A stretch of DNA of 50,707 nt from Bacteroidales bacterium (GTDB taxonomy: Bacteria; Bacteroidota; Bacteroidia; Bacteroidales; UBA932), in contig JAFQFD010000054.1 of assembly GCA_017415715.1 (NCBI GenBank), positions 1 through 50,707 of the forward strand. Direction: 5' to 3'. Position 1 is the stretch's first letter; each line of letters begins with the position of its first letter. The translations under genes were made by a program, and so were the position numbers. Under the pieces are notes generated by a model. The model was given only the letters and a program-made list of their open reading frames with translations. It ran no database searches and was not told the DNA's origin. Positions 19,115 through 35,320 of the stretch are shown here, one piece after another.

Positions 19115-19115
19115 C

Positions 19116-19321: not shown

Positions 19322-19347
19322 ACTTTGCAGGCCAGACATACTATCTG

Positions 19348-22188
19348 CTAAACCTTGGAATCGGCCTTTGGAGAGGTGCAGCTGTTGACCAGATATACTA
19401 CAGATCGGTATGGGATGCCCGAGTTGGTCTGAAGGCCTATTTCGCAGGTGCGGCTGTTGGAGTAGCCGGTTTCTATGCCTTTTGCTTCGATCTGGGAGCG
19501 GAGCTTGCGGAGCGCGTAAGCGTTGAGTTCCGGATGCGTCATGCCCTTGTCACCGGCAAAGCCGCAGCAGCCGACTCCCTCGGGAACGAGGACCTGAGAA
19601 GAACACAGGCATGCCAGGTCATACACGATGCGGTCAATCTTCATCAGTTTTGTCGAGCAGGTCAGATGGAGGGCCACCGGCCTGTCTGTCCGAGTGAATG
19701 TCAGTCTGTCCTTCAGGAATTTCCATATGAATTCGGCTGACTCGTAGAGTTCCACCTTCGTCATATGCTGCTTCATTCTGTGCAGACACGGGCTCTGGTC
19801 GCATACTACCGGATATTTCCCATGCTCAGACGCCTCCCAAAGCGCTTCCTCCAGTTGTCTGGTCTTATTGGCGGCTATTTCCGGAAGTCCTTTGCTTTCC
19901 CATATGGTCCCGCAGCAGAGCGAATCCATATTCTCAGGAAGTATCACCTCATAGCCAGCCTTCCCGAGCAGTTCAATCATCTCCTCTGCCAGAGGCTTCA
20001 TTCCTTCCGATGCCTTGTCAATGCCCATGGTCTGGTTCAGGCAGCTTGGGAAATATACGACTTTCAAGACACTGTCGCCTGCAACCGCAACACGCTTAGA
20101 CGCATTATACGCCTTCGGCATGGACGGAGTCCAGAGAGGCAGGCCGACTGCGTGCATGCCTCTTGCCAATGCGCCCATGACTTTGCCGCCCAGCACAGAA
20201 TGGCCGAAGTCTGCAACATGCAGGATGCCACGCAAGGCAGTCTTGACTCCATGGAAGTTATCAGCAACGAAACCACCTATTTCATTGGCCATCTTGCTCA
20301 TGTTCTTACGACGGACCTCATGGGTCAGATCGCCGACATTGATACCCATAGGGCACGACATCGAGCAAAGACCGTCACCAGCACAGGTCTGCTCGCCCGG
20401 ATATGAATATTGTTTCTCAAAGGTCTTCAGCAGGGACGGATCCTCACCTGTCAGCCTGAGGCGCTCCATCTCCCTCTGCAACACAATTCGTGTCCTTGAA
20501 GAGAGCGTGAATCCGCATGACACGCAGTTGACTTCGCAGAATCCGCACTCTATGCACTTGTTCAGCCTGGCATATGCCTTGACCGTTTCTTCAGGAGCCT
20601 CCGGCGCCGGTTTAAGAACCGGCAATGCCTTGAAATTCTTGAAGCAGCACTCCGGATCGTCATTGAATATCACTCCCGGATTGAGTATGTTCTGAGGATC
20701 GAATATGCTCTTTATGCGTTTCATAACATCAAACGCCTTTGCTCCCCACTCATATTCCACATACGGAGCCATGTTGCGGCCGGTGCCATGCTCGGCCTTC
20801 AACGACCCGTCATACTTCTTCACGACAAGCTCTGCGACGTCACCGATCATATCCTTATATCGCTGGACCTCACATTCCGAGCCAAACGCCTGGTTTATAA
20901 TGAAATGGAAGTTACCTTCCAGCGCATGACCATATATGCATGAATCGTCATAGCCATGCCTGTCAAGAAGATCCGACAGGTCGGTCACTGCCTCTGCAAG
21001 ATCCTCAACATGGAATGCGACATCTTCTATCAGACAGGTCGTACCTGGCTTCCTCATGCCTCCTACGGTCGGAAATATGCCCGAACGGATGGCCCAGAAC
21101 TTCGCAGATTCTTCAGGATCGGTCGTAAACCCGACAGCTCCATATGTATTGAACCGCTTCAAGACATCGGTAACCGCCTTGACCTTGTCCGCAAGTTCGT
21201 GCTGAGACTCAGCCTCAACCTGAGTGAGGACCGCTGTAAGGCCTTCTATTTCACCGGCATTCACCGATGCGAGAGAACGCTTGTCAAGCATCTCGGCAGC
21301 CGACACATTGAGGCTCTTCATAGCAATCACCGCACGTGCCGCCTCTGCCATATCCTTGAAATATACCATCGCATCGGCATGCAGAGGCGCCACCTTCAAG
21401 GTCTTCATCCTCACCTCACTCATGAATGCAAGCGTACCCTCCGAACCGACCAGAAGATGAAGCAGGATATCGAAAGGATCCTCATATGTGATCAAAGGCA
21501 GCAGATTCAGGCCTGTGACATTCTTTATGGAATATTTATGTCTTATGCGACCGGTCAGTTCAGCATCGCTCAGCACTTCGCTTCTGAGCTGTTCAATCTG
21601 ACTGAGCATTTCATGATGACTGCCGGCAAAGGCTTCCCTGCTCTTTGCATCTGCAGTATCCAGCACAGTGCCGTCTGCAAAGACGATACGTGCAGAGAGA
21701 AGCATCCTGTCGCTGTTCGCCCATGTTCCGCAACTCATTCCTGATGCGTTGTTCATCACTATGCCACCCACCATGCAGCTCTTTATCGAAGCCGGATCCG
21801 GACCGAACTTACGGCCATACTGTTTCAGGAAATCATTGACATGCGCACCGATCACACCCGGCTGCAAAGTCACGGTAAGACCACTGTCGTCTGTCTTGAT
21901 CTTCTCCCAGTTCCTGCCCGCAACTACAAGCACCGAATCACTGACTGCCTGGCCTGAAAGGCTCGTGCCGGCAGCGCGGAATGTAACTGGGACATTCGAT
22001 TCGGAAGCCGCTTTCAGAATAGATGCAACCTCCTTTTCCGAAGCAGACCTTATGACCATATGTGGAGTCATTCTATAGAATCCGGCATCCGTTCCCCAGG
22101 CGAAACGTCTGAGTTCATCTGTATAAATCCGATCCTTGGCAATGACATTGCCGATCCTGTTCAGAAATGCGTTGTATCTTTCAGTCAT
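19348..22188 (-). CDS. Fused FAD-linked oxidase / Fe-S (CCG-domain) oxidoreductase, D-lactate dehydrogenase-like
   Basis: A membrane-associated flavoprotein likely to oxidise a 2-hydroxyacid such as D-lactate or glycolate and pass electrons onward. I start it at the ATG at 22188 (946 residues), since the upstream extension to 22266 crosses a -7 promoter. From the N-terminus: FAD-binding type 4 domain with R-A-A-G-T-S-L-S-G-Q-A (about 70-80) and V-G-S-E-G-T-L-A-F; FAD-oxidase C-terminal domain with H-A-L-E-G-N-F-H; two 4Fe-4S cysteine clusters (C-I-E-C-G-F-C-E-V-N-C and C-A-G-D-G-L-C-S-M-S-C-P); and two CCG-type modules (C-C-G-T-I and C-C-G-F-A-G-D-K-G). This combines GlcD- and GlpC-like parts in one chain. 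Monocistronic. Confidence 0.9.
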   Translation of the reverse strand: MTERYNAFLNRIGNVIAKDRIYTDELRRFAWGTDAGFYRMTPHMVIRSASEKEVASILKAASESNVPVTFRAAGTSLSGQAVSDSVLVVAGRNWEKIKTDDSGLTVTLQPGVIGAHVNDFLKQYGRKFGPDPASIKSCMVGGIVMNNASGMSCGTWANSDRMLLSARIVFADGTVLDTADAKSREAFAGSHHEMLSQIEQLRSEVLSDAELTGRIRHKYSIKNVTGLNLLPLITYEDPFDILLHLLVGSEGTLAFMSEVRMKTLKVAPLHADAMVYFKDMAEAARAVIAMKSLNVSAAEMLDKRSLASVNAGEIEGLTAVLTQVEAESQHELADKVKAVTDVLKRFNTYGAVGFTTDPEESAKFWAIRSGIFPTVGGMRKPGTTCLIEDVAFHVEDLAEAVTDLSDLLDRHGYDDSCIYGHALEGNFHFIINQAFGSECEVQRYKDMIGDVAELVVKKYDGSLKAEHGTGRNMAPYVEYEWGAKAFDVMKRIKSIFDPQNILNPGVIFNDDPECCFKNFKALPVLKPAPEAPEETVKAYARLNKCIECGFCEVNCVSCGFTLSSRTRIVLQREMERLRLTGEDPSLLKTFEKQYSYPGEQTCAGDGLCSMSCPMGINVGDLTHEVRRKNMSKMANEIGGFVADNFHGVKTALRGILHVADFGHSVLGGKVMGALARGMHAVGLPLWTPSMPKAYNASKRVAVAGDSVLKVVYFPSCLNQTMGIDKASEGMKPLAEEMIELLGKAGYEVILPENMDSLCCGTIWESKGLPEIAANKTRQLEEALWEASEHGKYPVVCDQSPCLHRMKQHMTKVELYESAEFIWKFLKDRLTFTRTDRPVALHLTCSTKLMKIDRIVYDLACLCSSQVLVPEGVGCCGFAGDKGMTHPELNAYALRKLRSQIEAKGIETGYSNSRTCEIGLQTNSGIPYRSVVYLVNSCTSPKADSKV

Positions 22189-22210
22189 GATAGTGTGGTC
22201 TACTGTGGTA

Positions 22211-22218
22211 CAAAGATA
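22211..22218 (-). promoter_or_regulatory. -7 element for the FAD/Fe-S oxidoreductase gene
   Basis: The minus strand reads TATCTTTG, an exact TAnnTTTG match, 22 bp ahead of the ATG at 22188. It supports that start over the longer frame from 22266. Confidence 0.55.
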
Positions 22219-22271
22219 CAATATTATTAATAATGCACGAAAATTCTGAATTTTATCGTAACACATATTTC

Positions 22272-22315
22272 ATTCGGGGTGTATTGTCCTTGAACGAGCG
22301 AAATACAATCCGAAT
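22272..22315. promoter_or_regulatory. Large palindrome ahead of the MoxR-VWA operon (operator or leader hairpin)
   Basis: ATTCGG-GG-TGTATT (22272-22285) pairs with AATACA-AT-CCGAAT (22302-22315). Of 14 positions per arm, 12 are complementary, around a 16-nt interior. It ends 14 bp before the MoxR ATG, so it would cover the promoter/leader and could act as an operator or as a translation-controlling hairpin. No consensus -7 element is visible here. Confidence 0.55.
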
Positions 22316-22329
22316 TACAATCAATTCCA

Positions 22330-23415
22330 ATGAGTAATATTTCAGTGAACATCACGGAGCTCAAGCAGCTCCTTGAGGCGACGCCTGCCTCACACAACAT
22401 CATGCTTGTCGGCAACCATGGCATTGGTAAGTCAGAAATCCTTACAGAGCATTTCAAGGAGTCTGGAATGCCCGTAATCGCATTATTCCTCGGACAGATG
22501 GCCGACCCAGGCGACCTCATCGGTCTTCCTTGCAAGGACGAACAGACCGGCAAGACCGACTTCATGCCACCATACTGGTTCCCTACTGACGGAAAGCCGA
22601 TAGTCCTCTTCCTTGACGAACTCAACCGAGCACGTCCTGAGATACTTCAGACAGTGATGGACCTCGCTCTGAACCGCAAGCTTGCGGGCAAGATGCTTCC
22701 GGAGGGAAGCCGCATCATCAGTGCAGTCAACGCCGGTGACCAGTACCAGCTCACCGACCTTGACCCGGCTCTCGTATCCAGATTCAACATCGTCAATTTC
22801 AAGCCTACAGCCGAGGAGTGGCTGCTTTGGGCGAGGAAGGCGGGCCTCGACCAGAGAGTGATAAGCTTCATTGACGAAAACCGTTTATGGCTTGACAAGG
22901 ACCCGGACGCCAAGGAAGGAGCTGACACCGGACTGGACAAGACTCCTGACCGCCGCGCGTGGAAAAGGGTGTCAGACATAGTATCGGGAAAGAGCGATCT
23001 GAAAGAAATCGACGCAAAGATCATCTCCAGCATCGTAGGAGCAAAGGCAGCTTCAGCGTTCATGCAGAACGCTGCAAAGAGGAAGCTCATCACCGGACGC
23101 GAGGTCCTTACAGGCTTCGACAAGGCCAAGGTAAAGGACGCCCTTGCCGAGTACGGCATACATCAGCTTTCAGTCGTGAACGAGGGCATTTACAGACACC
23201 TGGAGGTGGAGAAGGTATCCGACAAGGAGGCAAAGGTATACGCAGACAACCTCATGTCATACTTCGAATACCTCACCAAGAAGCGCAAGGAGGCAGCTGC
23301 ACACTTCGCGAACATCTATGTCCAGCAGACATACCAGCAGGCCATAGCTTTCATCGCGACCAAGTGTCCTATGCTGGTGATGATGCTTGTTTCATACGTT
23401 AAGAGCATTAAATAA
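22330..23415 (+). CDS. MoxR-type AAA+ ATPase
   Basis: A 361-residue AAA+ ATPase of the MoxR group, which act as chaperones that remodel partner complexes together with VWA proteins. Walker A is G-N-H-G-I-G-K-S (28-35), Walker B F-L-D-E-L (94-98), and a sensor/arginine-finger region L-D-P-A-L-V-S-R-F follows. A helical C-terminal region of about 120 residues is rich in Lys and Ala. The next gene, a VWA protein, follows with no gap, which is the standard MoxR pairing. The start codon lies just past a large palindrome. The target of the chaperone is unknown; no metal-enzyme or hydrogenase genes are nearby. Confidence 0.9.
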   Translation: MSNISVNITELKQLLEATPASHNIMLVGNHGIGKSEILTEHFKESGMPVIALFLGQMADPGDLIGLPCKDEQTGKTDFMPPYWFPTDGKPIVLFLDELNRARPEILQTVMDLALNRKLAGKMLPEGSRIISAVNAGDQYQLTDLDPALVSRFNIVNFKPTAEEWLLWARKAGLDQRVISFIDENRLWLDKDPDAKEGADTGLDKTPDRRAWKRVSDIVSGKSDLKEIDAKIISSIVGAKAASAFMQNAAKRKLITGREVLTGFDKAKVKDALAEYGIHQLSVVNEGIYRHLEVEKVSDKEAKVYADNLMSYFEYLTKKRKEAAAHFANIYVQQTYQQAIAFIATKCPMLVMMLVSYVKSIK

Positions 23416-24606
23416 GTGGAGAAAAGGTACGCACATATCATGGAGCAGTGGTTCATCATGGAACCACCGCTCTTTCAGGTACTCTGCCTGCACGAGCTGA
23501 CGGCCAACACAAGCATGGTCTGTCCGCTGAGATGCGGCAGGAAAAAGCTTGAGTACAATCCCCTCATTGTCAACGAAATGTCCGACGACGCGCTTGAGGA
23601 GGCCATGCGTGCTGAAGCCGTGAGGATCCTGATGAAGCATCCGTATGAGAGACGTCCCGAGGGGTGCAGCCAGAGAGCCATGGGCCTTGGCAGCAACCTG
23701 GTAATCGGAGACAATTACAGTCATCCCCGTTTCCGCATCGAGACTCCGGAGGAGATGGGCATGAAAAAGGGCATGAACTACGAATGGTATGCGCGCGCGG
23801 TCGAAAGCATGTCGGAGAGTGGAGGCGAGGGCCAGAACGAGGGAGACGGCAGCCGAAGCAGCGCCGGAACCGGGAACGGGAACGGCAGTGACGGCGAGGA
23901 AGGCGAGGAAGGCGAGGAAGGCAAAGGACAGGGTGACAAACACCGCGACCTTGCGGAGCTGTGGGAAGAGGACGAACTGACAGCCATCCAGATCAACGAG
24001 ATAATAGCCACCACCAAATCCTGGGGTTCCATCGGAGGAGATCTCGCGGAGATTCTCCAGAACTCACTTAAGGCAAAGATCAACTGGAGGAACATTTTTG
24101 CCGGATTCCGCGCAAGCGTGATCTCGTCAAGGAGAAAGCTTACCAGAATGAAGCCGAACAGGAGGACAGGATTCCAGAACATGGGAAGCGTAAGGCAGTT
24201 CGACACCAAACTGCTTGTAGCCGTGGACGTGTCAGGTTCAATATCTACAAAGAGTCTTCAATATTTCTATGGCGTCATCAACAGCGCATTCAGATATGGC
24301 TTCCAAGAGATCGACGTCATACAGTTCGACTGCGGAATCACTGCTGTACAGAGTTTGAAAAAAGTCGTCAAGAAGACTCCGATCATAGGGCGAGGAGGCA
24401 CCTCGTTCCAGGAGCCGATAGACTATGCGCACGAGCATGAATATGACGGTCTCGTAATACTGACAGACGGATATGCACCTGAGCCAAGCATTCCAGATGG
24501 CTTCAGGACAGGCATTCTATGGGTATGTGAAAGCGAGGAATGCCACAAAATGAACAAGAACTGGATGGAGAAATCAGGCAGGACCTGTGTAATGCAACTG
24601 GGATAG
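23416..24606 (+). CDS. VWA-domain protein, DUF2201-like
   Basis: About 396 residues if the GTG abutting the MoxR stop is used; an ATG eight codons later is an alternative. The C-terminal domain is VWA-like with the metal-site motif D-V-S-G-S (Asp271) and I-L-T-D-G-Y. The N-terminal part resembles the putative metallopeptidase region found in DUF2201 proteins. The position where a zinc HExxH would be expected reads A-E-A-V-R, so a peptidase activity is unlikely. Between them, residues about 135-180 are a Gly/Glu/Ser low-complexity linker. In MoxR systems the VWA protein is the adaptor that binds both the ATPase and the target. Its stop is 2 bp ahead of the next gene. Confidence 0.82.
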   Translation: MEKRYAHIMEQWFIMEPPLFQVLCLHELTANTSMVCPLRCGRKKLEYNPLIVNEMSDDALEEAMRAEAVRILMKHPYERRPEGCSQRAMGLGSNLVIGDNYSHPRFRIETPEEMGMKKGMNYEWYARAVESMSESGGEGQNEGDGSRSSAGTGNGNGSDGEEGEEGEEGKGQGDKHRDLAELWEEDELTAIQINEIIATTKSWGSIGGDLAEILQNSLKAKINWRNIFAGFRASVISSRRKLTRMKPNRRTGFQNMGSVRQFDTKLLVAVDVSGSISTKSLQYFYGVINSAFRYGFQEIDVIQFDCGITAVQSLKKVVKKTPIIGRGGTSFQEPIDYAHEHEYDGLVILTDGYAPEPSIPDGFRTGILWVCESEECHKMNKNWMEKSGRTCVMQLG

Positions 24607-24608
24607 AT

Positions 24609-25169
24609 ATGACAAAGGAAATCATAGATGAAATAACAACCGCGATAAAGGCGGAGGTAAAAAGCAACATCTCTTACATGGTGTCAAGCGGAATGAATGT
24701 GTCGGAAGCAGATCAGCTCAGCAAAGCCTACGCATCATTTCAGCGTAAGTATACAGCAAAGATAAACGGCAAACGTTTCAGCATCTGGAGAGCCGAATTC
24801 CAAAAGGAGATAAACAGTGTCTGGGCTGCGATAAAGCCGGAAATTGCCGCCGTGGTCACCGACTATCTGCACAAGTCCCGTGTCAGAAAGATGACCAAGG
24901 AGATAAGGTCGGCGGCAGCCAAAGGAGCGATTACAACGGCCATGGAGGAAGCGGGTTTGACCTACCAGGTAGAATACCAGACATACCGTGCGAAAGTCGC
25001 CGTACTGGTTAATGAAAAAAGCAAGGTCATCTTCTATATCAACTACAAGAAGATGACTGAAGAAATCCCCCTGGCCATCAGCGCTGCCAAAGAGATCATC
25101 AGGCAGGTGAACCTTTTAGGCAAAGGGGCGTCGCTTTCAAAGGCATTCAATTATGAGACATGGATATAA
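24609..25169 (+). CDS. Unknown protein encoded third in the MoxR-VWA operon
   Basis: 186 residues, starting at the ATG 2 bp after the VWA stop; an in-frame extension upstream lies wholly within the VWA gene and is ignored. The protein is predicted mostly helical in the first 120 residues, rich in Lys, Ala and Ile. A more beta-like stretch follows (V-E-Y-Q-T-Y-R-A-K-V-A-V-L-V and K-V-I-F-Y-I-N-Y-K). It has no signal peptide, membrane segment or recognisable catalytic motif. Tight spacing implies it works with the ATPase/VWA pair, perhaps as a substrate or specificity factor. It ends 21 bp from the convergent response-regulator gene. I do not recognise a family. Confidence 0.75.
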   Translation: MTKEIIDEITTAIKAEVKSNISYMVSSGMNVSEADQLSKAYASFQRKYTAKINGKRFSIWRAEFQKEINSVWAAIKPEIAAVVTDYLHKSRVRKMTKEIRSAAAKGAITTAMEEAGLTYQVEYQTYRAKVAVLVNEKSKVIFYINYKKMTEEIPLAISAAKEIIRQVNLLGKGASLSKAFNYETWI

Positions 25170-25190
25170 GACAAAGAGGGCGACTAATAA

Positions 25191-25904
25191 TCACTTCCTT
25201 ATAGAATGCTTCCGCAAATACTGCATAAATGCATCCTTATTACCGTCACTTATCGACACATGAGCACCATTACTCATCAGAATCACAGAGCGCTCAACTT
25301 CCCTGATGTGATTCATATTTACGACATATGACCTATGCACCTGCAGGAAGCAGTCCGGCAGGCACTCGTTAAGTTGTTTGAAAGTCGTATGTGTAAGCAA
25401 AGGATCTCCGGAAGTGAGGTAAAACTTGAGATACTCATTCATACCTTCTACATATATCACGTCATTCAATGCAACCCTCACATATCTATAGTCCACCTTG
25501 AGAAAAAGGGCATCCAACACACAGGCTGGCTGCGGCACACCGGAAGCCGGCATCGCTTTCTGCAGATTACAGGCTGCACGCTGAAAATCTTCAAACCCGA
25601 ATGGCTTCAGCAGATAGTCGACAGCATGTACCTTATAACTGTCAACAGCATATTCTGAATATGCCGTTGTGAATACGACGAGAGGCGGGTCCGACAATGC
25701 TCTGACGAATTCCATTCCACATACATCCGGCATATTGATATCCACAAACATTGCATCCACCTCTGCCTCGGACATGACTTGCATGGCCTCAGTCGTACTC
25801 GCACACAAGGCGACGAGCTCCATGAAAGGGATCCGTTCAATATAGTTCTTCAGTTTGTCAAGAGCCAGAGGCTCGTCATCTATGGCAATACACCTGATTT
25901 TCAT
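25191..25904 (-). CDS. LytTR-family response regulator
   Basis: A 237-residue regulator with an N-terminal receiver domain (acidic pair D9-D10, phospho-acceptor Asp55 in F-V-D-I-N-M-P-D, Lys in L-K-P-F) and a C-terminal LytTR DNA-binding domain (about 135-235, with F-L-Q-V-H-R-S-Y-V-V-N). LytTR domains bind pairs of short direct repeats about two helical turns apart. The gene overlaps the upstream histidine kinase by four bases (ATGA). A tandem repeat carrying two such half sites lies at 27089-27132, just ahead of the kinase gene and the divergent surface-protein operon. That is the likely binding site for this regulator. Confidence 0.95.
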   Translation of the reverse strand: MKIRCIAIDDEPLALDKLKNYIERIPFMELVALCASTTEAMQVMSEAEVDAMFVDINMPDVCGMEFVRALSDPPLVVFTTAYSEYAVDSYKVHAVDYLLKPFGFEDFQRAACNLQKAMPASGVPQPACVLDALFLKVDYRYVRVALNDVIYVEGMNEYLKFYLTSGDPLLTHTTFKQLNECLPDCFLQVHRSYVVNMNHIREVERSVILMSNGAHVSISDGNKDAFMQYLRKHSIRK

Positions 25905-27025
25905 AATCCCGGAATTATCAATATTACACTATAAATTTCATCAGTATCTACAATATCCAGCACATAGCGGTCCTGATACAACAGGTCGAGTCTTCTGCGG
26001 ACATTAGCCAGACCGACACCACCTCCTGAATCTGTACGAGCCTCAAGCGGCGGTCTGGTATTGGAACACTTGAAGCATACGCGCGACAGCTCTTCCGACA
26101 ACGAAACAGAAATCTCGGACCTGCGCATATAACTCACGCCATGCTTGAAAGCATTCTCAACAAAAGATATGAACAGCAGTGGCGGAAGAAGAAGTGATGC
26201 GGACGGAGCCTCAGGGACCTCCAGACTTATCTCTACCTTATCGGACGGATAACGTTGACGCATCAGTTCCACATATTTGGAAATGAACTGCACCTCATTC
26301 TCAAAGGTCGTATAGGAATTGCTGCCTTCATACAAGACATACCTCATCAACTTGGACAAGTCAAGAATCATCTGTTGAGCCAGTTCCGGATTGACATCTA
26401 CCATCGAGTGGATATTGTTCAGCATGTTCATGAAGAAATGCGGATCTATCTGTGCTTTCAGATACCTCAGTTCATCCTGCATCCGCATATTCTCAAGCTG
26501 TTTCCTCTCTTCTTCTGTCTTTTTGTATTTGAATATCAGGACTACGCCAAGATTGAATCCCAAAAGCAGGACCAGCAGGCAAGTGTCCGCAACGACCGGC
26601 ATGGGCAGTCTTCCCTTTGGAGGTTTCGGTGACACATTATGAGGAGGACGTGCAGCATCCGGGCGTACCGGAGGAACAGTATGTTCTACATGGGGACGAT
26701 AATGGAGCGCTTTTCTCTGCCTATGCACATGATACTGTCCTGTCGCAAACAGGACAATGAGAACAAGCGTCAGGATCAGGTACGTCAGGCCCTTCTCTTT
26801 TCTTATATAAACAGGAAGCAGCAGCAGATTATGCAACAGGAACGCTATCAGGAATGGAATCAACGACATCCAGAATCTGAAAACATCCCTCCATGAAAAG
26901 CCGACACCATCTTCAGAGGCCACCAGTCCCTGTATGAGCGGCAGCAGAATAAGCAAAAGCCACAACCCCCAAAAGATCAGGAGTCTCAGCAGCTTGTCCT
27001 TACCTATGTCAATTCCTCTGAACAT
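25901..27025 (-). CDS. LytS/YehU-type sensor histidine kinase
   Basis: 374 residues with four predicted membrane helices at about 12-34, 51-72, 79-95 and 144-166. A His/Pro/Arg-rich periplasmic segment lies between the third and fourth. The kinase domain has His196 in Q-I-D-P-H-F-F-M-N, and the ATP-binding region has E-N-A-F-K-H-G and G-G-V-G-L-A-N. This is the LytS type, which phosphorylates LytTR regulators. The H box differs slightly from the common Q-I-N-P-H-F-L-F-N. No sensor domain besides the membrane segments is visible; the His/Pro loop could bind a metal or an anion, but that is speculation. First gene of a two-gene operon. Confidence 0.94.
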   Translation of the reverse strand: MFRGIDIGKDKLLRLLIFWGLWLLLILLPLIQGLVASEDGVGFSWRDVFRFWMSLIPFLIAFLLHNLLLLPVYIRKEKGLTYLILTLVLIVLFATGQYHVHRQRKALHYRPHVEHTVPPVRPDAARPPHNVSPKPPKGRLPMPVVADTCLLVLLLGFNLGVVLIFKYKKTEEERKQLENMRMQDELRYLKAQIDPHFFMNMLNNIHSMVDVNPELAQQMILDLSKLMRYVLYEGSNSYTTFENEVQFISKYVELMRQRYPSDKVEISLEVPEAPSASLLLPPLLFISFVENAFKHGVSYMRRSEISVSLSEELSRVCFKCSNTRPPLEARTDSGGGVGLANVRRRLDLLYQDRYVLDIVDTDEIYSVILIIPGL

Positions 27026-27088
27026 CGTTGCAAATTAATCAATATTTATGAAAAAACCACCCGAAAGTCAGCAGTCAGGCACATTCTT

Positions 27089-27132
27089 TCAGTAAACAGT
27101 TCACCGCCGGTCAGTAAACAGTTGACCGCCGG
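27089..27132. promoter_or_regulatory. Tandem 22-bp direct repeat, candidate LytTR binding site
   Basis: Two adjacent 22-bp units (27089-27110, 27111-27132) differ at one base. Each has a core ACAGTT(C/G)AC close to the LytTR half-site consensus [TA][AC][CA]GTTN[AG][TG], with only the last base off. The 22-bp phase puts the cores on the same DNA face. The site is 64 bp ahead of the kinase start and about 60-100 bp ahead of the predicted start of the divergent operon, the usual place for an activator. Nothing else like it is seen in the window. Confidence 0.65.
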
Positions 27133-27178
27133 TTTTAAGCACTTCATTGATTTTTATTGATAATCGGGCAAATACTGA

Positions 27179-27186
27179 TTTGATTT
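27179..27186 (+). promoter_or_regulatory. Putative -7 element of the surface-polymer operon
   Basis: TTGATTTG differs from TAnnTTTG at one base and lies 42 bp ahead of the ATG at 27229. There is no good -33 box, which would fit a promoter that depends on an activator bound at 27089-27132. Confidence 0.35.
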
Positions 27187-27228
27187 GTATGGAAACAGGT
27201 CCGAATGGACAATCGGTTATATTGAATT

Positions 27229-30200
27229 ATGAAAAGATATTGCATCGTCTTGACAATCTGCTGTCTTGCACTTTTCAGTACAAATTGCAGGATGGATGAA
27301 TTAGAAGGAATGGTTGACAAGTCCTTGACAGGAGGTCTTTCCGATCCTGAACTGGAATGGGACTCTGACCTATGTGAAGCAACAATAGGTGAAGACAATA
27401 ATTTCCCTGTCCTGACGAACAGGCTCGACCTGCATATAAGTTATTCTTCATCAGACACGGAAGTGGCGCTGATATCAGAGAACGGAGAAATCACACTCTG
27501 CGGGGGAGGAGAGACAACGATTACCGCATCCACAGAAAAGACAGGAAAGTATGATGCAGCTAGTGACTCTTATACCTTGATAGTACATAAAGCTGATGTC
27601 ATCCTCAAATGGTCTGAAAGCAAATACAAGGCAGTGTTGAACGGAACAAATTCCTTCCCTGTACTTGACAAGACAGATGGGATTTCGATCCTTTACTCAT
27701 CTAGCGAAGAAAAGGTAGCAGACATTGACGAAACAGGCAAGATCAGATTAATTTCAGCCGGTTCCACTATTATTACTGCGACATCTGCTGAAACTGCAAC
27801 TCATAATACAGGAAGTGCATCATATACCCTCACGGTTACCAAGTCAAAGGCCGGAATAGTATGGTCATCCGACTCATTTACAGCAGTTCTAGGAGAAGAC
27901 AACATATTCCCTACCCTTGATAATCCGAACGGACTGGCAATCACATTATCCAGCAGTAATCAGGATGTAGCAGAAATATCCGCCGAGGGAGTCATAACAC
28001 TAAAACAGCAAGGCAGTTCGGTAATTTCAGCAACCAGTGCTGCCACAGACGAATTCGAAGCAGACGAAGACTCATACACACTTACCGTCCGGAAATCTGA
28101 GGATAACCTAAAATCAGATGCAGAACTTAAATGGTCAGAATCATCATTTGCAATAACATACGGGGACAACATCGCATTCCCGACATTGTCAAACCCTCAC
28201 AACCTGGAGGTCACATATTCATCTACCAATGAGGAGGTTGCAAGGATATCGCCAACCGGGACGGTTACCATAACATCTTCCGGCTCCACCACAATCATTG
28301 CGTCTTCGGAAGCAAATGAAGAATATAACGCATGCAGCGTATTCTACATGCTCACCATATCTAAAGCCGAGGCAGGGATTTCATGGAGCACAAGCAGTCA
28401 CAATGCCACATTCGGTGAAGACGGCCCGTTCCCGATATTGAATAACCCGAACAATCTTAGGATTACCTACAAGACAAGCAACGCCTACGTCGCTACCGTC
28501 AGCGCTGAAGGTGACATTTCACTTGTGGGTGCCGGAAATGCAACGATCTCTGCTCTATACGAAGGTAGTCCGCTGTATGAAGCAGAAGCAGTAGCCTATT
28601 CTTTAACTGTAAGCAAGGGCAATACAGATGTATCGTGGAGCCAGGAGGCATATACAGCATTGCTTAATGGAACAAACGACTTCCCTACACTGACTGCTTC
28701 GCCTGATGGACTGGACATTTCATATTCATCTAGCGACGTGGGGGTAGCTGAAATCACATCCGATGGAGCCATCACATTGATTTCCGCCGGAAGAACTACG
28801 ATAACAGCATCATTTACAGGTAACAACAGCTATTCTGCCTCAAGTGACTCATATATACTTACAGTCACAAATGGAGATGACGACGGAACCGGCACGTACA
28901 CCTATCCAAGCACCGGAGATGCCAATTCGAACGACGACATAGTCAACACAGTATTCACAAGAAAGATTACCATCACATATCATACCGGAAACGAGGCCAC
29001 AGTAACCGGAGATTATTATGGCTACGTCACAGTCAACGGTAATGATGTCACCGTCAACAATACAGGCTCGGAATACATAGTATACGAGCTTAAGGGAACA
29101 ACCGATGATGGATTTCTGAAAATATACAGCGGATCCAGACAGGCTCTTCTGCTGAACAACGTAAGCATAACCAACAGAGCAGGTGCAGCAATAAACAATC
29201 AAAGCAAGAAACGCACGTTTGTAATGGTTGAAGGCACTAACACGCTGGCAGATGGCGCTTCATATACAGACACACCTGCAGCTGAGGATGAGAAGGCGGC
29301 ATTATTCAGCGAAGGTCAGCTCGTATTCAGCGGAAGCGGAATTCTGAACGTCAATGCCGGCGGTAAAGCAGGCATAACTTCCGACGACTACATAAGAGTC
29401 ATGAACAGTCCGACAATCAACTCGACGTCGTCAGCAGGACACGCAGTAAGAGGACAGGAAGCGATACAGATAGACGCGGGAACCATCAATGCCAAGACCT
29501 CTGCAGACATGAAGAAAGGCTTCAGCTCAGACAGCCTCGTGGTATTCAACGGAGGTACGACAAAAATTGATGTAACAGGTGGAACAGCTTATGACAGCGA
29601 AGATGCCGACTACACGAGTTCTGCAGGCGTCAAGGCAGACAAGCTGTTCTATATGAACGGAGGAAACCTGACAATCACTAACAGCGGAGCCGGCGGGAAA
29701 GGCATAAACGTCGGATCGGACGACACGACTAACGACTGTAAGGCATACTTCACAGGAGGAAATGTCGACATCACCTGCAGCGGGGCCTATTATACTACTG
29801 GAGAATCAGGAGCGAAAGGAATCAAGGTTGGAAAGAAATTTTCATCAACATCTCTCACCGGCGACATGTATGTCAGCGGAGGAGTCATTACGGTAAGGGC
29901 AATCGGCTCAAATTCAAGCAGAGATTCAGGTAACGAAGCTGTCGAAAGCAAGGGCGTACTCGAAGTAACAGGCGGCGAACTCTTCGCATATTCTACATCA
30001 GACGATGCAATAAATTCTGCAGATGACTTCACTATAACTGAGGGTTATGTATGCGGGATCTCTACCGGCAATGACGGTCTTGACTCTAACGGTAACTTCT
30101 ACATCAAGGGTGGAGTTGTCATGGCTGCAAGCGCACGTTCACCTGAAGTCGGAATCGACGCCAACTCGGAAGGAGGGAAGAAGTTGTATGTTACAGGAGG

Positions 30201-30528
30201 AGTACTCTTCGTAACAGGTGGTTTGGAATCCGGAGCCAGTCTGACACAGACTTGCTATAAAGCATCTTCTTACACTAAAGGCATATGGTACGGACTTACC
30301 GTGGGATCCAAGACATATGCATTCAAGACACATAGCAGCGCATCCGGAAGCACCCTTGTAGTTTCAGGACAGGAAACTCCTACCCTCAAATCCGGCATAA
30401 CAATAACCGGTGGGACTTCGTATTTTGACGGATACGCCAACAGGGACGGCTCCTACAGCGGTGGCAGCACAGTCAACCTGTCAAGCTATTCAGGATCTAC
30501 AGGTGGCCCTGGAGGACGCCCTTGGTAA
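27229..30528 (+). CDS. Surface lipoprotein with six Ig-like repeats and a Cthe_2159-type beta-helix domain
   Basis: 1099 residues. An N-terminal signal ends in a weak lipobox (S-T-N-C20) followed by acidic residues, consistent with surface export in this phylum. Six imperfect repeats of about 82 residues follow, at roughly 41-121, 124-204, 208-289, 299-379, 382-463 and 467-547. Each has the pattern F-P-x-L, Y-S-S-S/T, G-x-I/V-T-L, T-x-I-x-A and Y-x-L-T-V of bacterial Ig-like (Big_2-type) domains. Residues about 570-1060 form a Gly/Asn-rich repetitive domain like Cthe_2159 (DUF4353), a beta-helix that binds acidic polysaccharide or cellulose in Clostridium thermocellum. The C-terminus is Gly/Ser-rich. 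First gene of a five-gene operon divergent from the LytS/LytTR pair. Likely displays or binds a polymer at the surface. Confidence 0.85.
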   Translation: MKRYCIVLTICCLALFSTNCRMDELEGMVDKSLTGGLSDPELEWDSDLCEATIGEDNNFPVLTNRLDLHISYSSSDTEVALISENGEITLCGGGETTITASTEKTGKYDAASDSYTLIVHKADVILKWSESKYKAVLNGTNSFPVLDKTDGISILYSSSEEKVADIDETGKIRLISAGSTIITATSAETATHNTGSASYTLTVTKSKAGIVWSSDSFTAVLGEDNIFPTLDNPNGLAITLSSSNQDVAEISAEGVITLKQQGSSVISATSAATDEFEADEDSYTLTVRKSEDNLKSDAELKWSESSFAITYGDNIAFPTLSNPHNLEVTYSSTNEEVARISPTGTVTITSSGSTTIIASSEANEEYNACSVFYMLTISKAEAGISWSTSSHNATFGEDGPFPILNNPNNLRITYKTSNAYVATVSAEGDISLVGAGNATISALYEGSPLYEAEAVAYSLTVSKGNTDVSWSQEAYTALLNGTNDFPTLTASPDGLDISYSSSDVGVAEITSDGAITLISAGRTTITASFTGNNSYSASSDSYILTVTNGDDDGTGTYTYPSTGDANSNDDIVNTVFTRKITITYHTGNEATVTGDYYGYVTVNGNDVTVNNTGSEYIVYELKGTTDDGFLKIYSGSRQALLLNNVSITNRAGAAINNQSKKRTFVMVEGTNTLADGASYTDTPAAEDEKAALFSEGQLVFSGSGILNVNAGGKAGITSDDYIRVMNSPTINSTSSAGHAVRGQEAIQIDAGTINAKTSADMKKGFSSDSLVVFNGGTTKIDVTGGTAYDSEDADYTSSAGVKADKLFYMNGGNLTITNSGAGGKGINVGSDDTTNDCKAYFTGGNVDITCSGAYYTTGESGAKGIKVGKKFSSTSLTGDMYVSGGVITVRAIGSNSSRDSGNEAVESKGVLEVTGGELFAYSTSDDAINSADDFTITEGYVCGISTGNDGLDSNGNFYIKGGVVMAASARSPEVGIDANSEGGKKLYVTGGVLFVTGGLESGASLTQTCYKASSYTKGIWYGLTVGSKTYAFKTHSSASGSTLVVSGQETPTLKSGITITGGTSYFDGYANRDGSYSGGSTVNLSSYSGSTGGPGGRPW

Positions 30529-30540
30529 AACAGTGACGAC

Positions 30541-31386
30541 ATGAAACAGAAACTTATCATAATGATTCTGATGTTCTTGCCATTGGCAGGAAAGGCACAG
30601 AACAAAGAACTTGATTACACATTGACCGAGCCCACAATTCAGACTGGAGCAAGATTTGATGCAAATCTTGAAATCACTCTCATCCCCAAAACTCTTCATC
30701 TGAATTTTCAAGAAGAGGTCAGAGTCAATGACAATTTCAGGCATATGCAGAAGTCGTACACGTCCGCAAGCATTGAATATAAAGCACTCTCATGGCTGAA
30801 GATAGGTGCGGAATATTCGTTTATCCTTAACAATTCGTATTCGGATGGATGGGAAGCACGTCACAGAGGTTCTTTCTCCCTGACTGAAAGTCTGAGAGCA
30901 GGAAGATGGAAATTCTCTATGAGGGAAAGATTTCAGGTCACACACAGGACAGACTCTGTCAACTTATATCAGTCTCCACGAAACGAGATTTCTCTGAAGA
31001 CAAGATTGAAAATAGGATATGATGTACCCGGCAGTCACTTTGAACCTTACATTTCCGCAGAGACAAGATTCCTGCTGAACGGTGTCCGTCCAAGCAGATT
31101 CATCTACTATGAGAGTACCGGACGATGGGCTAATCCATACCCCGAATATTCGGATGCATATCTTAATCGTCTTCGTCTGAAGCTTGGTACGGAATATAAA
31201 TGTTCCAAGAAGAACGAACTCGATTTCTTCATCATCGCTGACATGAACTTTGACCTTGAGATCGACTTCAGTTCAAAAGGAAATCAAAAGACAGACTTGA
31301 CTTCAGCAACCGGTTTTGCCGATTACCTGTTTGTAAAGAATTCATATTTCATCGGCATAGGAATAAGTTATACATTCAAGTTATAA
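30541..31386 (+). CDS. DUF2490-like outer-membrane beta-barrel protein
   Basis: 281 residues with a signal peptide (about 1-19, ending K-A-Q). The rest alternates hydrophobic and charged residues in strand-length units typical of a barrel, and the protein ends in aromatic/hydrophobic residues (Y-T-F-K-L) as outer-membrane proteins do. The pattern (L-K-I-G-A-E-Y, R-H-R-G, Y-I-S-A-E-T-R-F) fits DUF2490. It lies 12 bp after the beta-helix gene. A role as a porin or exit channel for a polymer is possible but only inferred from context. Confidence 0.75.
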   Translation: MKQKLIIMILMFLPLAGKAQNKELDYTLTEPTIQTGARFDANLEITLIPKTLHLNFQEEVRVNDNFRHMQKSYTSASIEYKALSWLKIGAEYSFILNNSYSDGWEARHRGSFSLTESLRAGRWKFSMRERFQVTHRTDSVNLYQSPRNEISLKTRLKIGYDVPGSHFEPYISAETRFLLNGVRPSRFIYYESTGRWANPYPEYSDAYLNRLRLKLGTEYKCSKKNELDFFIIADMNFDLEIDFSSKGNQKTDLTSATGFADYLFVKNSYFIGIGISYTFKL

Positions 31387-31396
31387 TACGATAGAC

Positions 31397-31837
31397 ATGG
31401 ACAGATTCAGACATTTAATCTACTTCTTTTCATTGGCATTGCTGTTATTCCTGTCCGGGACTGCCGCATATTCCCAGGAACTGGATGCAGCTACACTTGC
31501 CAAGCGCGCTGGCAGGAAGAATCTCACAATCAAGGAGTGGAATACCGACTCCAGATCCAAGAAAAGATGGCTCGACCGCGTCACAACATATGACAATCAG
31601 GGACGCAAGATAGAACAGATCGAATACGCATCATACGGCCAGAAATGGAGGGAGACGTATGAATATGGAGATAATGGACGCATCGTAAGAGAGGTTGAAT
31701 ATGACGACAGGGACAAACCCAAATCCGTGAAGGTATACGAATACAACACCGACGGCACCAAGAAAAAGCAATATAAATATAATCCCAACGGGAAATTGGA
31801 AACGGTCAAGATCTTTGAATATATCATCTCAGAATAG
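31397..31837 (+). CDS. Small exported repeat protein (YD/wing-like repeats)
   Basis: 146 residues with a signal peptide (about 1-27, ending Y-S-Q). The mature part holds four or five short repeats of Y-x-x-x-G-x-x-x-x-x-x-x-Y type, such as Y-D-N-Q-G-R, Y-G-D-N-G-R, Y-N-T-D-G-T and Y-N-P-N-G-K. They resemble YD-repeats or MORN-like beta units and probably form a small beta sheet. Function unknown. It lies 10 bp after the DUF2490 gene, and its TAG stop overlaps the GTG start of the VTC-like gene by one base, so it belongs to the operon. Confidence 0.7.
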   Translation: MDRFRHLIYFFSLALLLFLSGTAAYSQELDAATLAKRAGRKNLTIKEWNTDSRSKKRWLDRVTTYDNQGRKIEQIEYASYGQKWRETYEYGDNGRIVREVEYDDRDKPKSVKVYEYNTDGTKKKQYKYNPNGKLETVKIFEYIISE

Positions 31838-32616
31838 TGGCACACCTTGAACAAGACTTCCATGCCATAGGCAGTATGCCTCTCGTCACGTTAGATGAGA
31901 TGCAAGCCGTGGAGCTAATGAATCGTATTGACACAAAATTCATTACGGACATATCGGTACTGGACAGCATTCTTGACGACGCTTATTCTGCCGGGTATAA
32001 GGTGTGCGAAATAACAGGACACAGGCTGCTCAGGTACACTTCCATATATTATGACACCGATGATCTGGAAATGTTCAGGAGACATAGAAACGGTAAGAAG
32101 ACCAGACAGAAGATAAGGGTCCGCTCATATCACATCAACGGAGAGAATTATCTGGAAATCAAGAACAAACAGAATACGGGAAGAACAAGAAAAAGGCGCA
32201 TAAGGATAACAGACGACCTGAAAATGGACTTTTCCAAATCTAAAGAGGCCGCAGCATTCATAGATAATCATTCAAAATACGGAAGAGCAGAGCTTACACC
32301 GGAAACAAGCACTGACTTCCAACGTATCACCTTGACTAATAAAGCAATGTCTGAAAGGATAACGATTGACATTGACTTAAATTTCACAAACTACAGGAAC
32401 GGCATCCTTGCCGATATCGGGAAACTTGTCATAATCGAAGTCAAGCAGGACAGCAGAAATATTTCAAGAATGAAAGCAATATTATTGAAGCATAGAGTAT
32501 TCCCATACAGAGTAAGCAAATACTGTCTTTCCGTCATTATGACCGAGCATGACATACACCCAGGAAGGTATAAGGAAAAACTAAGACATATCCATAAAAT
32601 AACAGAACAGAGATGA
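31837..32616 (+). CDS. VTC-domain protein (polyphosphate polymerase-like)
   Basis: About 259 residues if the GTG overlapping the previous stop is used; an ATG at codon 14 is a possible alternative. The protein consists of a single VTC-type tunnel fold of the CYTH group. Basic and acidic ligands expected along the tunnel are visible: R-I-D-T-K-F near the start, K-I-R-V-R-S-Y, Y-L-E-I-K-N-K, R-K-R-R-I, T-I-D-I-D and V-I-I-E-V-K. In yeast Vtc4 this fold makes polyphosphate from ATP. Here there is no SPX domain and no membrane segment, so it would need a membrane partner. The overlapping DUF4956 gene (ATGA) supplies one. Whether the product is polyphosphate or another phosphoryl transfer is not known. 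Confidence 0.82.
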   Translation: MAHLEQDFHAIGSMPLVTLDEMQAVELMNRIDTKFITDISVLDSILDDAYSAGYKVCEITGHRLLRYTSIYYDTDDLEMFRRHRNGKKTRQKIRVRSYHINGENYLEIKNKQNTGRTRKRRIRITDDLKMDFSKSKEAAAFIDNHSKYGRAELTPETSTDFQRITLTNKAMSERITIDIDLNFTNYRNGILADIGKLVIIEVKQDSRNISRMKAILLKHRVFPYRVSKYCLSVIMTEHDIHPGRYKEKLRHIHKITEQR

Positions 32617-33401
32617 AACCTTTACAGATAGACCCCACAATGGCGGCTAACTTCTCGCCAGAGCCGGCAGACACCCTGTCAGGCACATTCCCTGAATTCG
32701 ATCCGTCAATAGCAGCTGAGTTCGGATACGAGGTTGCCCAGGCCTCCAGTTTTCTTGGAATCCCATTATTCGAGACCTCCAGTTTGATTCATATGTGCAT
32801 ACATTTTGCATTCAACCTGTTGATCTCATGGGTCATAGTGCATTTGTTCTACTATAGAAAATCCAGAAGAAAGGACTATTACTTCACGTTCATGCTATTC
32901 TCGTCAGCAATGTTCCTGCTTCTGTTCGTAATGGAAAACATCAAGCTCCAGATTGGATTTGCACTCGGTCTTTTCGCGATCTTCGGCATGATACGTTACA
33001 GGACAGAAACCGTACCTGTCAGAGAAATGACATATCTGTTCGTTATCATTGCAATTTCCATAATAAACGGACTGGCCTTGAACATTTCTTACGCAGAACT
33101 TGTTCTGGCCAATATGCTTATAGTATTTCTTATATGGATACTGGAAAGTGACAGAATCACCGGCCACACTTCCACAAAACTTGTCACATATGATAGGATT
33201 GACCTGATAGTACCAGAAAGACGGGAAGAACTTAAGGAAGATCTAGAAAGAAGGATCGGAGTAAAAGTACGCGACATCGAGATAGGTTCCGTAGACTTCC
33301 TGAGGGACTCTGCCTTCCTCAAGATCACATACGACCTACCGAAAGGCAGTTCTTGCTCAATCGATCAGCTAAGAAAAGAAAAGGATTATACAGGACGCTA
33401 A
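32613..33401 (+). CDS. DUF4956 integral membrane protein
   Basis: 262 residues. About five hydrophobic helices lie between residues 58 and 180, including the family hallmark G-L-F-A-I-F-G-M-I-R-Y-R-T. They are followed by a cytoplasmic domain of about 75 residues. A 50-residue N-terminal extension is Pro/Ser/acidic. DUF4956 genes often stand next to VTC-domain genes, and here they overlap by four bases. I infer that it forms the membrane part, perhaps a channel, of a VTC-like complex. The last gene of the operon; the convergent dehydrogenase gene ends only 5 bp away with no terminator visible. Confidence 0.85.
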   Translation: MKPLQIDPTMAANFSPEPADTLSGTFPEFDPSIAAEFGYEVAQASSFLGIPLFETSSLIHMCIHFAFNLLISWVIVHLFYYRKSRRKDYYFTFMLFSSAMFLLLFVMENIKLQIGFALGLFAIFGMIRYRTETVPVREMTYLFVIIAISIINGLALNISYAELVLANMLIVFLIWILESDRITGHTSTKLVTYDRIDLIVPERREELKEDLERRIGVKVRDIEIGSVDFLRDSAFLKITYDLPKGSSCSIDQLRKEKDYTGR

Positions 33402-33406
33402 AGCGA

Positions 33407-34333
33407 CTACCACCCCTTCCTTATGTTCTCTGCCATTATGGCGACAAGTCTTTCGCGAGCCTCCATGCTTGCCCACGCGACATGAGGGGCCAGTCTCATC
33501 CTTTCCGGATGCTTCATCTTCAGGTATGGATGGTCTTCAGGAATCGGCTCTGTCACGAACACATCCATTCCCGCTCCGGCAATTACGCCAGCATCGACAG
33601 CTGCTGCAAGATCTGCCTCAACCACGATTGCACCGCGGCCCATGTTGATCAGATACGCCGTCGGCTTCATCATCGCGAGTTCCTCAGATCCGATGAGATT
33701 GAGAGTCCTTTCGTTCAGAGGAGCATGAATCGATACTATATCCGAGTCTGCCAGAAGCTGTTCCAACGACAGGCAAGGATATTCCTTGCAATGTCCTGTA
33801 CCTGAAGTCGAATAGTAGCACACCTTCATTCCGAATGCTTCGGCTATCGAGGCGACTTTACGGCCGATGTTGCCGAGGCCTATGATGCCTATGGTCTTCC
33901 CAGCCAGCTCCCACCAGTTCCAGTTCGGATCCGTGAACATGCCGCTGCGGGAATACCTGCCCGATTTAACGCTTTCGTCGAAATATGGAGCCCCGCCCAC
34001 GAGAGAGAGGATGTGCATGAACGTAGACTGAACCACCGAATCTGTGGAATATCCCACCGCATTGCGTACCGGAATGCCTTTTGATGCAGCGTATTCCACA
34101 TCAATATTGTTAACGCCAGTGGCCGCTATGCATATGAGCCTGAGATTGGGCGCCGCATCTATAAGTTTTTTGTCCACAAGGACTTTGTTTATAAGCAGCA
34201 CATCGAGATCCTTGACCCTCTCAAGAGCCTCTTCCGGAGTCGAACTCTCATAACGGACGAATTCACCCAAACGCTCAAACGGCTCGAAGGAGACATCTCC
34301 CATGGTAGCCGCATCAAGAAAAGCAATCTTCAT
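33407..34333 (-). CDS. D-2-hydroxyacid dehydrogenase (NAD-dependent)
   Basis: 308 residues of the D-isomer-specific 2-hydroxyacid dehydrogenase family, close in pattern to glycerate/hydroxypyruvate reductases. The dinucleotide-binding motif G-L-G-N-I-G-R is at about 150. The substrate Arg lies in N-M-G-R-G, the catalytic Glu near M-D-V-F-V-T-E-P, and the catalytic His in A-P-H-V-A-W. Reaction direction and exact substrate cannot be told. The gene is separate from the convergent surface operon and is followed upstream by the tRNA-Leu terminator. A poor -7-like TATATTTA lies at 34352-34359. Confidence 0.9.
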   Translation of the reverse strand: MKIAFLDAATMGDVSFEPFERLGEFVRYESSTPEEALERVKDLDVLLINKVLVDKKLIDAAPNLRLICIAATGVNNIDVEYAASKGIPVRNAVGYSTDSVVQSTFMHILSLVGGAPYFDESVKSGRYSRSGMFTDPNWNWWELAGKTIGIIGLGNIGRKVASIAEAFGMKVCYYSTSGTGHCKEYPCLSLEQLLADSDIVSIHAPLNERTLNLIGSEELAMMKPTAYLINMGRGAIVVEADLAAAVDAGVIAGAGMDVFVTEPIPEDHPYLKMKHPERMRLAPHVAWASMEARERLVAIMAENIRKGW

Positions 34334-34372
34334 ATACTCTAAGAATTTTTGTAAATATATGAAGATATAAAT

Positions 34373-34405
34373 AAAAAAGAGGAAGAATTTCGAGAATTCT
34401 TCCTC
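34373..34405 (-). terminator. Intrinsic terminator of tRNA-Leu
   Basis: GAGGAAGAATT (34379-34389) and AATTCTTCCTC (34395-34405) form a perfect 11-bp stem. On the minus strand it is followed by TTTTTT (34378-34373). Confidence 0.85.
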
Positions 34406-34411
34406 TTCATG

Positions 34412-34492
34412 TGCCCGAGATAGGAGTCGAACCTACACGCCGTGAAGCACTCGCACCTGAAACGAGCGTGTCTACCATTTCACCACTCGGGC
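34412..34492 (-). tRNA. tRNA-Leu (anticodon CAG)
   Basis: On the minus strand the acceptor GCCCGAG pairs with CTCGGGC. The anticodon stem CTCGT/GCGAG encloses loop TTCAGGT, giving CAG. A long variable arm of class II type and a GTAGG-TTCGACT-CCTAT T-arm are present. The 3' CCA is not encoded, unlike tRNA-Asn above. A -7 element precedes it and a strong terminator follows. Confidence 0.95.
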
Positions 34493-34506
34493 CTGGAAAA
34501 GTCCGA

Positions 34507-34514
34507 CAAAGATA
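34507..34514 (-). promoter_or_regulatory. -7 promoter element of tRNA-Leu
   Basis: The minus strand reads TATCTTTG, an exact TAnnTTTG match, 14 bp ahead of the mature tRNA 5' end, with TTCG 18 bp further upstream as a weak -33. Confidence 0.6.
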
Positions 34515-34555
34515 TAAAATGTTTTTGAAATACGAACTATTTTTTCACTTTTCCA

Positions 34556-35320
34556 TCATATCACTATGTCGAAATGGTATTCCTTTTCCCAATCATTGAT
34601 CCGGAAGCCTACAGAGCTCAAAGCATAATCCAGAGTCATTGTGATGTCTTCAAGGTTTTCCCGGGTCCAGTCATATCCGGAAGATTCAATATATTCTCCT
34701 AACGAGAACACACGGAAACTGCCTTCCCCATCGGTCACCTCCAGCTTGAGGGACGCGTCTGTCTGCCTTGGCAGGACCACTTCCCCCTCCCCGTCCTCAA
34801 AGGAGATCTCATATCGGAATCCACCTTCGGAAGGTCTTCCTTCAGCATCATAACCGTTGACATTGCCCGTTACGGCGACATCATATGCAGTCGAGTATTC
34901 TGATTGAAGATGAACAGTAAGGACACTATGGTTCTTAAGCATACGGATCTTCTCTACTACACTTTCCTGCAACGATTCCAATGACGAGCAGTGCATATAG
35001 ACCTCCGGACAGTCATCCCCATAAGGGATACTCAGCCCCTCAGGACCGGGCGAATGCTCCTCCGCTCCGCTGTACGCCCACACATACACCCGGCCTTTAG
35101 GTACCGACATCACATACTCACTCCCCAAATGATGTGAGTCCATGACTTCGTTGAAGACAAAGCCCTGGGAGGCTTGCACATATACATCAGCCTCCTTTAT
35201 AATGGACGTATCGACATCACGCATGTCCAGGACCAGACGACACGGGCACTCCATTCTGTCCTCCTTCACCGAGCAGGCAGCCATACACAGCAGTCCTGCC
35301 GCAATTCCCCAAAGCTTCAT
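34556..35320 (-). CDS. FimB/Mfa2-like fimbrial anchor lipoprotein
   Basis: A minor fimbrial subunit that anchors the fimbria to the outer membrane and limits its length in Porphyromonas-type (type V) pili. I chose the ATG at 35320 (254 residues) because GGAGGA (complement of 35328-35333) lies 7-8 nt ahead of it; an ATG at 35326 is too close to that site. The signal peptide ends in lipobox M-A-A-C. The mature part has the Mfa2 pattern: C-P-C-R-L-V-L-D near the start, V-W-A-Y-S-G and the C-terminal W-x-x-x-x-x-F-D-I-V-I strand. It lies 16 bp after the fimbrillin gene as the last gene of the operon. Confidence 0.85.
   Translation of the reverse strand: MKLWGIAAGLLCMAACSVKEDRMECPCRLVLDMRDVDTSIIKEADVYVQASQGFVFNEVMDSHHLGSEYVMSVPKGRVYVWAYSGAEEHSPGPEGLSIPYGDDCPEVYMHCSSLESLQESVVEKIRMLKNHSVLTVHLQSEYSTAYDVAVTGNVNGYDAEGRPSEGGFRYEISFEDGEGEVVLPRQTDASLKLEVTDGEGSFRVFSLGEYIESSGYDWTRENLEDITMTLDYALSSVGFRINDWEKEYHFDIVI

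Follow-up and report, generated by a model that had tools for sequence, protein, structure and literature searches.

A conserved VTC-DUF4956 gene pair and its envelope-protein neighbours in a Bacteroidales operon: a candidate polyphosphate polymerase with a possible route of export

The window analysed here, a 50,707-nucleotide stretch of contig JAFQFD010000054.1 from a Bacteroidales draft genome (GCA_017415715.1), contains an operon that joins a candidate polyphosphate polymerase of the VTC family to a DUF4956 membrane protein and to several envelope proteins. Its five genes lie on the + strand. The first (27229..30528) encodes a likely lipoprotein in which six Big_2 Ig-like stretches accompany a Cthe_2159 domain (Pfam, 4.3e-21 and 1.5e-34), and it is followed by a DUF2490 putative outer-membrane barrel (30541..31386; 5.8e-14), a small and probably secreted YD-repeat-like protein (31397..31837; signal peptide by eye), the VTC-domain protein (31837..32616, GTG start; 1.6e-25) and the DUF4956 protein (32613..33401; 2.5e-55). 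The open reading frame calls leave intergenic gaps of 12 and 10 bp and then overlaps of 1 and 4 bases. Divergent from the operon, on the - strand, are genes for a response regulator with a receiver and a LytTR DNA-binding domain (25191..25904; LytTR 3.5e-18, Response_reg 1e-17) and for a PF06580 histidine kinase (25901..27025; His_kinase 2.1e-23). A tandem 22-bp direct repeat, a candidate LytTR operator (27089..27132, + strand), sits between the two units, 97-140 bp upstream of the first gene. A preliminary description had named this spacing, the four Pfam families and the regulator pair, and the ORF calls and Pfam agree with it throughout. The VTC, DUF4956, Cthe_2159 and DUF2490 families each have one locus in the window's own genome (a 2.58-Mb draft, 86% complete), all in this operon, and PPK1 was not found in that draft.

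VTC and DUF4956 genes form a strongly conserved pair, more than chance would give. Three sets of loci were compared: 80 VTC-selected places from 75 of 144 positive genomes, hand-chosen among the matches listed by E-value (set 1, L035-L114); the best 80 of 557 confirmed DUF4956-selected places (set 2, L115-L194), of which all but L120 and L169 (no taxon stated) come from Bacteroidota taxa and one, L115, has a cassette 95% identical to that of the window; and 58 of 65 listed places from the wider Bacteroidota (set 3, L287-L344). The two genes are adjacent on the same strand at 76/80 set-1 and 79/80 set-2 loci, so the preliminary description's worry that relatives might show no conserved neighbourhood falls away. 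The set-1 exceptions are L063, L067 and L111, which show no DUF4956, and L084, where it is about 700 bp off; at the set-2 exception, L163, DUF4956 is at the contig start. Set 3 has an adjacent pair at 56/58 loci and DUF4956 within 6.5 kb of VTC at all 58. Across 295 genomes of the order, 139 carry both families, 5 VTC alone, 12 DUF4956 alone and 139 neither. The same three of 14 control genomes match both (Bacteroides ihuae, Corynebacterium glutamicum and Methanosarcina acetivorans), and 16 of 72,556 plasmid records have a VTC match, each with a DUF4956 match no more than about 1 kb away.

The VTC protein (259 aa) matches its profile above the Pfam cut-off, has the corresponding fold and groups with Vtc4, whose chains are its best matches. 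It keeps the substrate, metal or catalytic positions K200, K281, K294, R361, R373 and S457 of Vtc4, which we take to be functional. It also keeps K458, together with R264, R266 and E426, whose functional role comes from published work; key tunnel residues, which the preliminary description had feared might be missing, are thus in place. We do not class the protein with the eukaryotic VTC complex, because VTC is the sole family over cut-off in its 259 residues; no SPX or VTC-type membrane domain is joined to the tunnel domain, and the search did not extend to a separate Vtc1-like subunit elsewhere. Public annotation already uses the name 'Polyphosphate polymerase domain-containing protein'. The pair is a real module, widespread and conserved, whose polyphosphate polymerase looks intact. 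The residue counts for both proteins, and the VTC tree and neighbour labels given below, exclude frames that fell outside a set range of lengths; the residue counts also exclude L115. The structure alignments comprised the window with 73 proteins (A4) and the window with 72 set-2 proteins (A5).

The DUF4956 protein (PF16316, 187.2 bits against a cut-off of 30.6) is predicted to have five membrane helices followed by a C-terminal alpha/beta domain. In the predicted model (pLDDT 84.8), the long helices span residues 55-84, 88-107, 113-130, 136-157 and 160-178. R130 is conserved in all 214 DUF4956 sequences, Y80 in 213, R128 in 210, and G119 and F143 in 207. Helix counting places R128 and R130 on one side of the membrane together with the C-terminal domain and the loop that follows the first helix, and we read this side as cytoplasmic because of the positive-inside rule. 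The searches gave no solved structure that matches the protein over its whole length.

The remaining operon proteins would lie farther out in the envelope. The Cthe_2159 protein (PF14262, 120 bits against a cut-off of 25.8) is the sole PF14262 gene found in its own genome and has an atypical lipobox by eye. DUF2490 (PF10677, 52.7 bits against a cut-off of 29.8) is listed as putative porin family TC 1.B.81 (excerpt of PMC4827864), and its pore role is putative. The small protein matches no Pfam family over cut-off, with only sub-threshold matches to DUF2963 and to the RHS/YD repeat. Within 6 kb of the core pair, set 2 has YD at 73/80 loci, DUF2490 at 65/80 and Cthe_2159 at 38/80, and set 1 has DUF2490 at 40/80, YD at 29/80 and Cthe_2159 at 11/80; the whole loci of set 3 have Cthe_2159 at 2/58. 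Relatives carry periplasmic and outer-membrane parts, and a few of them have phosphate-linked neighbours.

An HlyD-type adaptor adjoins VTC-DUF4956 in many Bacteroidota loci (L035-L047, L287-L320). The label comes from a custom profile: PF13437 is over cut-off in 3/7 members tested, and the four HlyD-type proteins tested against NCBIfam have only sub-cut-off matches to HlyD/RND-type adaptors. Within a 3.5-kb radius of 217 VTC loci, HlyD occurs at 44, DUF2490 at 118 and both together at none. Loci without HlyD, DUF2490 or YD at that distance number 24/80 in set 1, 2/80 in set 2 and 11/58 in set 3. The alternation goes by clade, since a tree of 144 VTC proteins (sets 1 and 3, plasmids and the window) needs 23 changes of label against a mean of 70.5 (minimum 63) for shuffled labels. 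One clade holds 43 HlyD and 8 unlabelled proteins, and another 55 DUF2490, 19 unlabelled and 6 plasmid proteins.

Nine plasmid loci were also inspected for phosphate links outside Bacteroidota; they are leads without a background count. Two Aminobacter loci and one from Shinella read DUF4956-VTC-Phytase-like (one confirmed by Pfam), and Nitratireductor has DUF4956-VTC-PHO4 phosphate transporter-Phytase-like. In Deinococcus QL22, VTC-DUF4956 lies near an acid phosphatase and phnDCE, and Deinococcus taeanensis has CotH-VTC-DUF4956 with no phosphate gene near. A Pseudoalteromonas plasmid (L212:4676-5588) has the order LTD-VTC remnant-DUF4956-phosphate-selective porin O/P. At the Nonomuraea and Streptomyces loci the region carries no annotation.

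The window's cassette looks like the product of a recent horizontal exchange between species. Positions 25187-34564 are 95.2% identical to L115:600-9951, a contig of the closest relative of the window genome (G320, same genus), while in the flanks the two long pieces that align have identities of 71 and 78%; the pattern looks like exchange of the whole cassette, regulator included, with a different DUF2490 allele. Nucleotide identities are 99.9% for VTC, 99.4% for DUF4956, 98.7% for Cthe_2159, 97.9% for the kinase, 96.5% for the regulator, 95.0% for the dehydrogenase, 93.9% for YD and 74.1% for DUF2490, the most divergent gene of the cassette. Within the near-identical cassette, identity falls to 61-84% per 100 bp over positions 30541-31540, where DUF2490 and the beginning of YD are encoded; this divergent block suggests either that an allele was replaced or that the outer-membrane protein is diversifying. 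On one side of the cassette lies tRNA-Asn and on the other a hydroxyacid dehydrogenase/tRNA-Leu, and the interval between them (19038-34492) varies among relatives. In the window it has an extra ~6 kb (19.1-25.2 kb; AAA ATPase and VWA-like genes by eye) that L115 lacks there; in G326, G315 and one contig of G318 the interval is without the cassette, and G301 has the operon in a different order and without Cthe_2159. VTC occurs in 43/101 genomes drawn from the genus.

Family membership, active-site residues, the pairing and the alternation of envelope parts are observed; for the activity, product, direction, route and regulation of the operon, which are inferred, we propose the following reading. 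The cytoplasmic VTC domain would move phosphate from ATP onto a growing chain, and DUF4956 would dock it at the inner membrane and take up the acidic chain at the basic motif R128-x-R130, presumed to face the cytoplasm, so that the chain would cross the inner membrane during synthesis. From there, the small YD protein of the periplasm and the DUF2490 barrel could pass it onward, and the Cthe_2159 lipoprotein could hold or use it at the surface. In the other large branch, an HlyD-type adaptor would take the place of YD and DUF2490. The candidate polymerase probably makes polyphosphate. Whether the chain crosses the inner membrane through DUF4956 is evenly poised, and that it leaves the cell is a plausible step to which we give distinctly less than an even chance; surface display is hypothetical. 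The core as a two-protein, membrane-coupled polyphosphate synthase that exports its chain via envelope parts is a reading that we favour tentatively, at a little under an even chance.

If true, it would give DUF4956, DUF2490 and the Cthe_2159 lipoproteins their first joint function, account for bacterial 'polyphosphate polymerase domain' genes that adjoin surface-protein genes, and add a dedicated bacterial route to polyphosphate outside the cell. Extracellular polyphosphate has roles in metal binding, surface adhesion and host signalling. More speculatively, several phyla may own a second, Vtc4-like polyphosphate route in which VTC and DUF4956 form a synthase-translocase that, unlike PPK1, is membrane-built and exporting, with two Gram-negative exits (YD/DUF2490 and HlyD) and interchangeable surface users (the Cthe_2159 beta-helix, CotH and phytase-like proteins), and Bacteroidales might display polyphosphate on demand; we consider this wider picture doubtful, a shade more so than export itself. 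Being small and conserved, the VTC-DUF4956 pair lends itself to direct testing.

Several observations count against parts of this proposal. Cthe_2159, near 11/80 set-1 and 38/80 set-2 loci, is optional, and the 'complete' envelope-spanning system of the preliminary description is unsupported or too strong a term. The alternation of HlyD and DUF2490 may reflect a single ancient switch, although it would still look like two exits for one product. Residue D32 of the VTC protein, at the Glu-4 position of the plant phosphatase AtTTM3 by motif register, is still acidic. The earlier parallel between DUF4956 and the yeast channel is an inference only, with no solved structure matched to the protein as a whole and an ambiguous, remote resemblance to MgtC. 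Regulation was likewise overstated as an operon 'switched on by' its own pair: the pair does adjoin the operon and has travelled with it between two species, but regulator and kinase are both near only 19/152 operons (from 160 loci, leaving out L115 and loci with <230 bp upstream), and L115 has one 22-bp copy (L115:2503) where the window has two. The two window copies are 21/22 identical, and the 22-mer with up to three mismatches has 2 matches in its own genome and none in 100 window shuffles. LytTR sites are described as two 9-bp repeats separated by 10-13 bp (excerpt of PMC11347149), a spacing that the repeat pitch fits, and the repeat spacing of LytTR regulatory systems is most often 12 bp (excerpt of PMC6193735). 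Upstream repeats of at least 10/12 occur at 6/19 regulator-linked loci, 13/133 others and 33/800 random segments, a modest excess; a stricter scan gives 10 matches in 161 loci (4 regulator-linked) against 34 in 1610 random segments. Transcription of the window operon is probably under the control of the neighbouring LytTR pair.

The strongest alternative departs from polyphosphate export in purpose and leaves the core enzyme unchanged. VTC-DUF4956 could supply polyphosphate, or some other activated form of phosphate, beyond the inner membrane for phosphorylation of surface proteins or glycans, by CotH-type kinases or, in the window operon, by another enzyme acting on the Cthe_2159 protein. CotH-type profiles of any kind do occur near VTC at 35/80 set-1 and 24/58 set-3 loci, and the Deinococcus CotH-VTC-DUF4956 order and a published cotH-PPP-DUF4956 run beside Pel genes (excerpt of PMC7112168) point the same way. 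However, the window operon has no CotH and CotH is near only 2/80 set-2 loci; we regard this purpose as unlikely. CotH and Cthe_2159 occur together at one set-1 locus, no set-2 locus and one set-3 locus (L306).

Rather improbable is a role in intracellular phosphate or ATP balance, in which polyphosphate would stay in the cytoplasm, DUF4956 would be an MgtC-like regulator instead of a conduit and the secreted proteins would merely be co-regulated. For most of its length, a DUF4956 profile aligns with an MgtC profile (probability 91.8, with 1/7 MgtC frames probably spurious), and a third profile against a cleaned MgtC set (n=12) gives 52.8, with reversed and unrelated controls below 1. A less diverse DUF4956 profile, however, scored 0.2, and the periplasmic and outer-membrane genes stand in the same tight runs as the core (median DUF2490-DUF4956 gap of 0 bp in set 1 and 3 bp in set 2).

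Only marginally less probable is a tunnel-fold phosphatase or transferase that acts on a small substrate without making polymer, an option that the preliminary description had left standing. D32 apart, the sequence argues against it. Besides the match to Vtc4, R30 takes the place of Glu-2 of AtTTM3, the first of the paired phosphatase glutamates, in 157/159 sequences and K203 stands at the register position of Glu-171 in 159/159, so that the acidic patch of CYTH/TTM triphosphatases (Glu-2, Glu-4, Glu-90 and Glu-171; Glu-90 was not mapped) is not reproduced. In Vtc4, basic residues guide the chain away where AtTTM3 has four glutamates, and K458 is catalytic whereas its AtTTM3 counterpart matters little (excerpt of PMC4641920). 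Least probable is an accessory module of an exopolysaccharide system whose polymer or phosphate serves a glycan, as the Pel-linked genes (PMC7112168, same excerpt) and the description of PF14262 as carbohydrate-binding might suggest, since Pfam finds a glycosyltransferase in 0/5 operon proteins (glycan genes near relatives were not searched for).

In the open-access literature matched by our search, the text available gives no function for a bacterial VTC protein with DUF4956 and does not describe the DUF2490/Cthe_2159 and HlyD arrangements. In the excerpts, Streptococcus sanguinis and Clostridium thermocellum each have a VTC domain protein mentioned in one table, and Bifidobacterium has a table row. 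Bacteroides thetaiotaomicron BT3498-99 places two families of the window operon, DUF4956 and DUF2490, next to each other, in a table row that gives no function and a non-significant change in iron depletion (-7.6-fold, P 0.175; excerpt of PMC10434189). The NELoc-2 locus of Clostridium perfringens has VTC domain genes near CotH, as in relatives of the window operon; DUF2490 and Cthe_2159 are not named in the excerpts (PMC2879425, PMC11677781), and its neighbours annotated 'tubulin/FtsZ' may, at a guess, be DUF4956. The CotH-polyphosphate polymerase-DUF4956-DUF4832 genes beside pelDEADAFG (excerpt of PMC7112168) share the VTC-type and DUF4956 proteins with the window and have the CotH seen in many Bacteroidota loci, whereas the window has DUF2490, the YD protein, Cthe_2159, a Gram-negative envelope and the LytTR pair. 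The yeast VTC complex (Vtc4 catalytic domain; Vtc1/Vtc3/Vtc4) has the same type of tunnel domain with the same active-site residues, and it is similarly closely linked to a membrane protein whose basic residues are conserved. In contrast to yeast, the window VTC protein is short and separate and has no SPX match, DUF4956 replaces the VTC membrane domain, and the operon adds periplasmic and outer-membrane parts.
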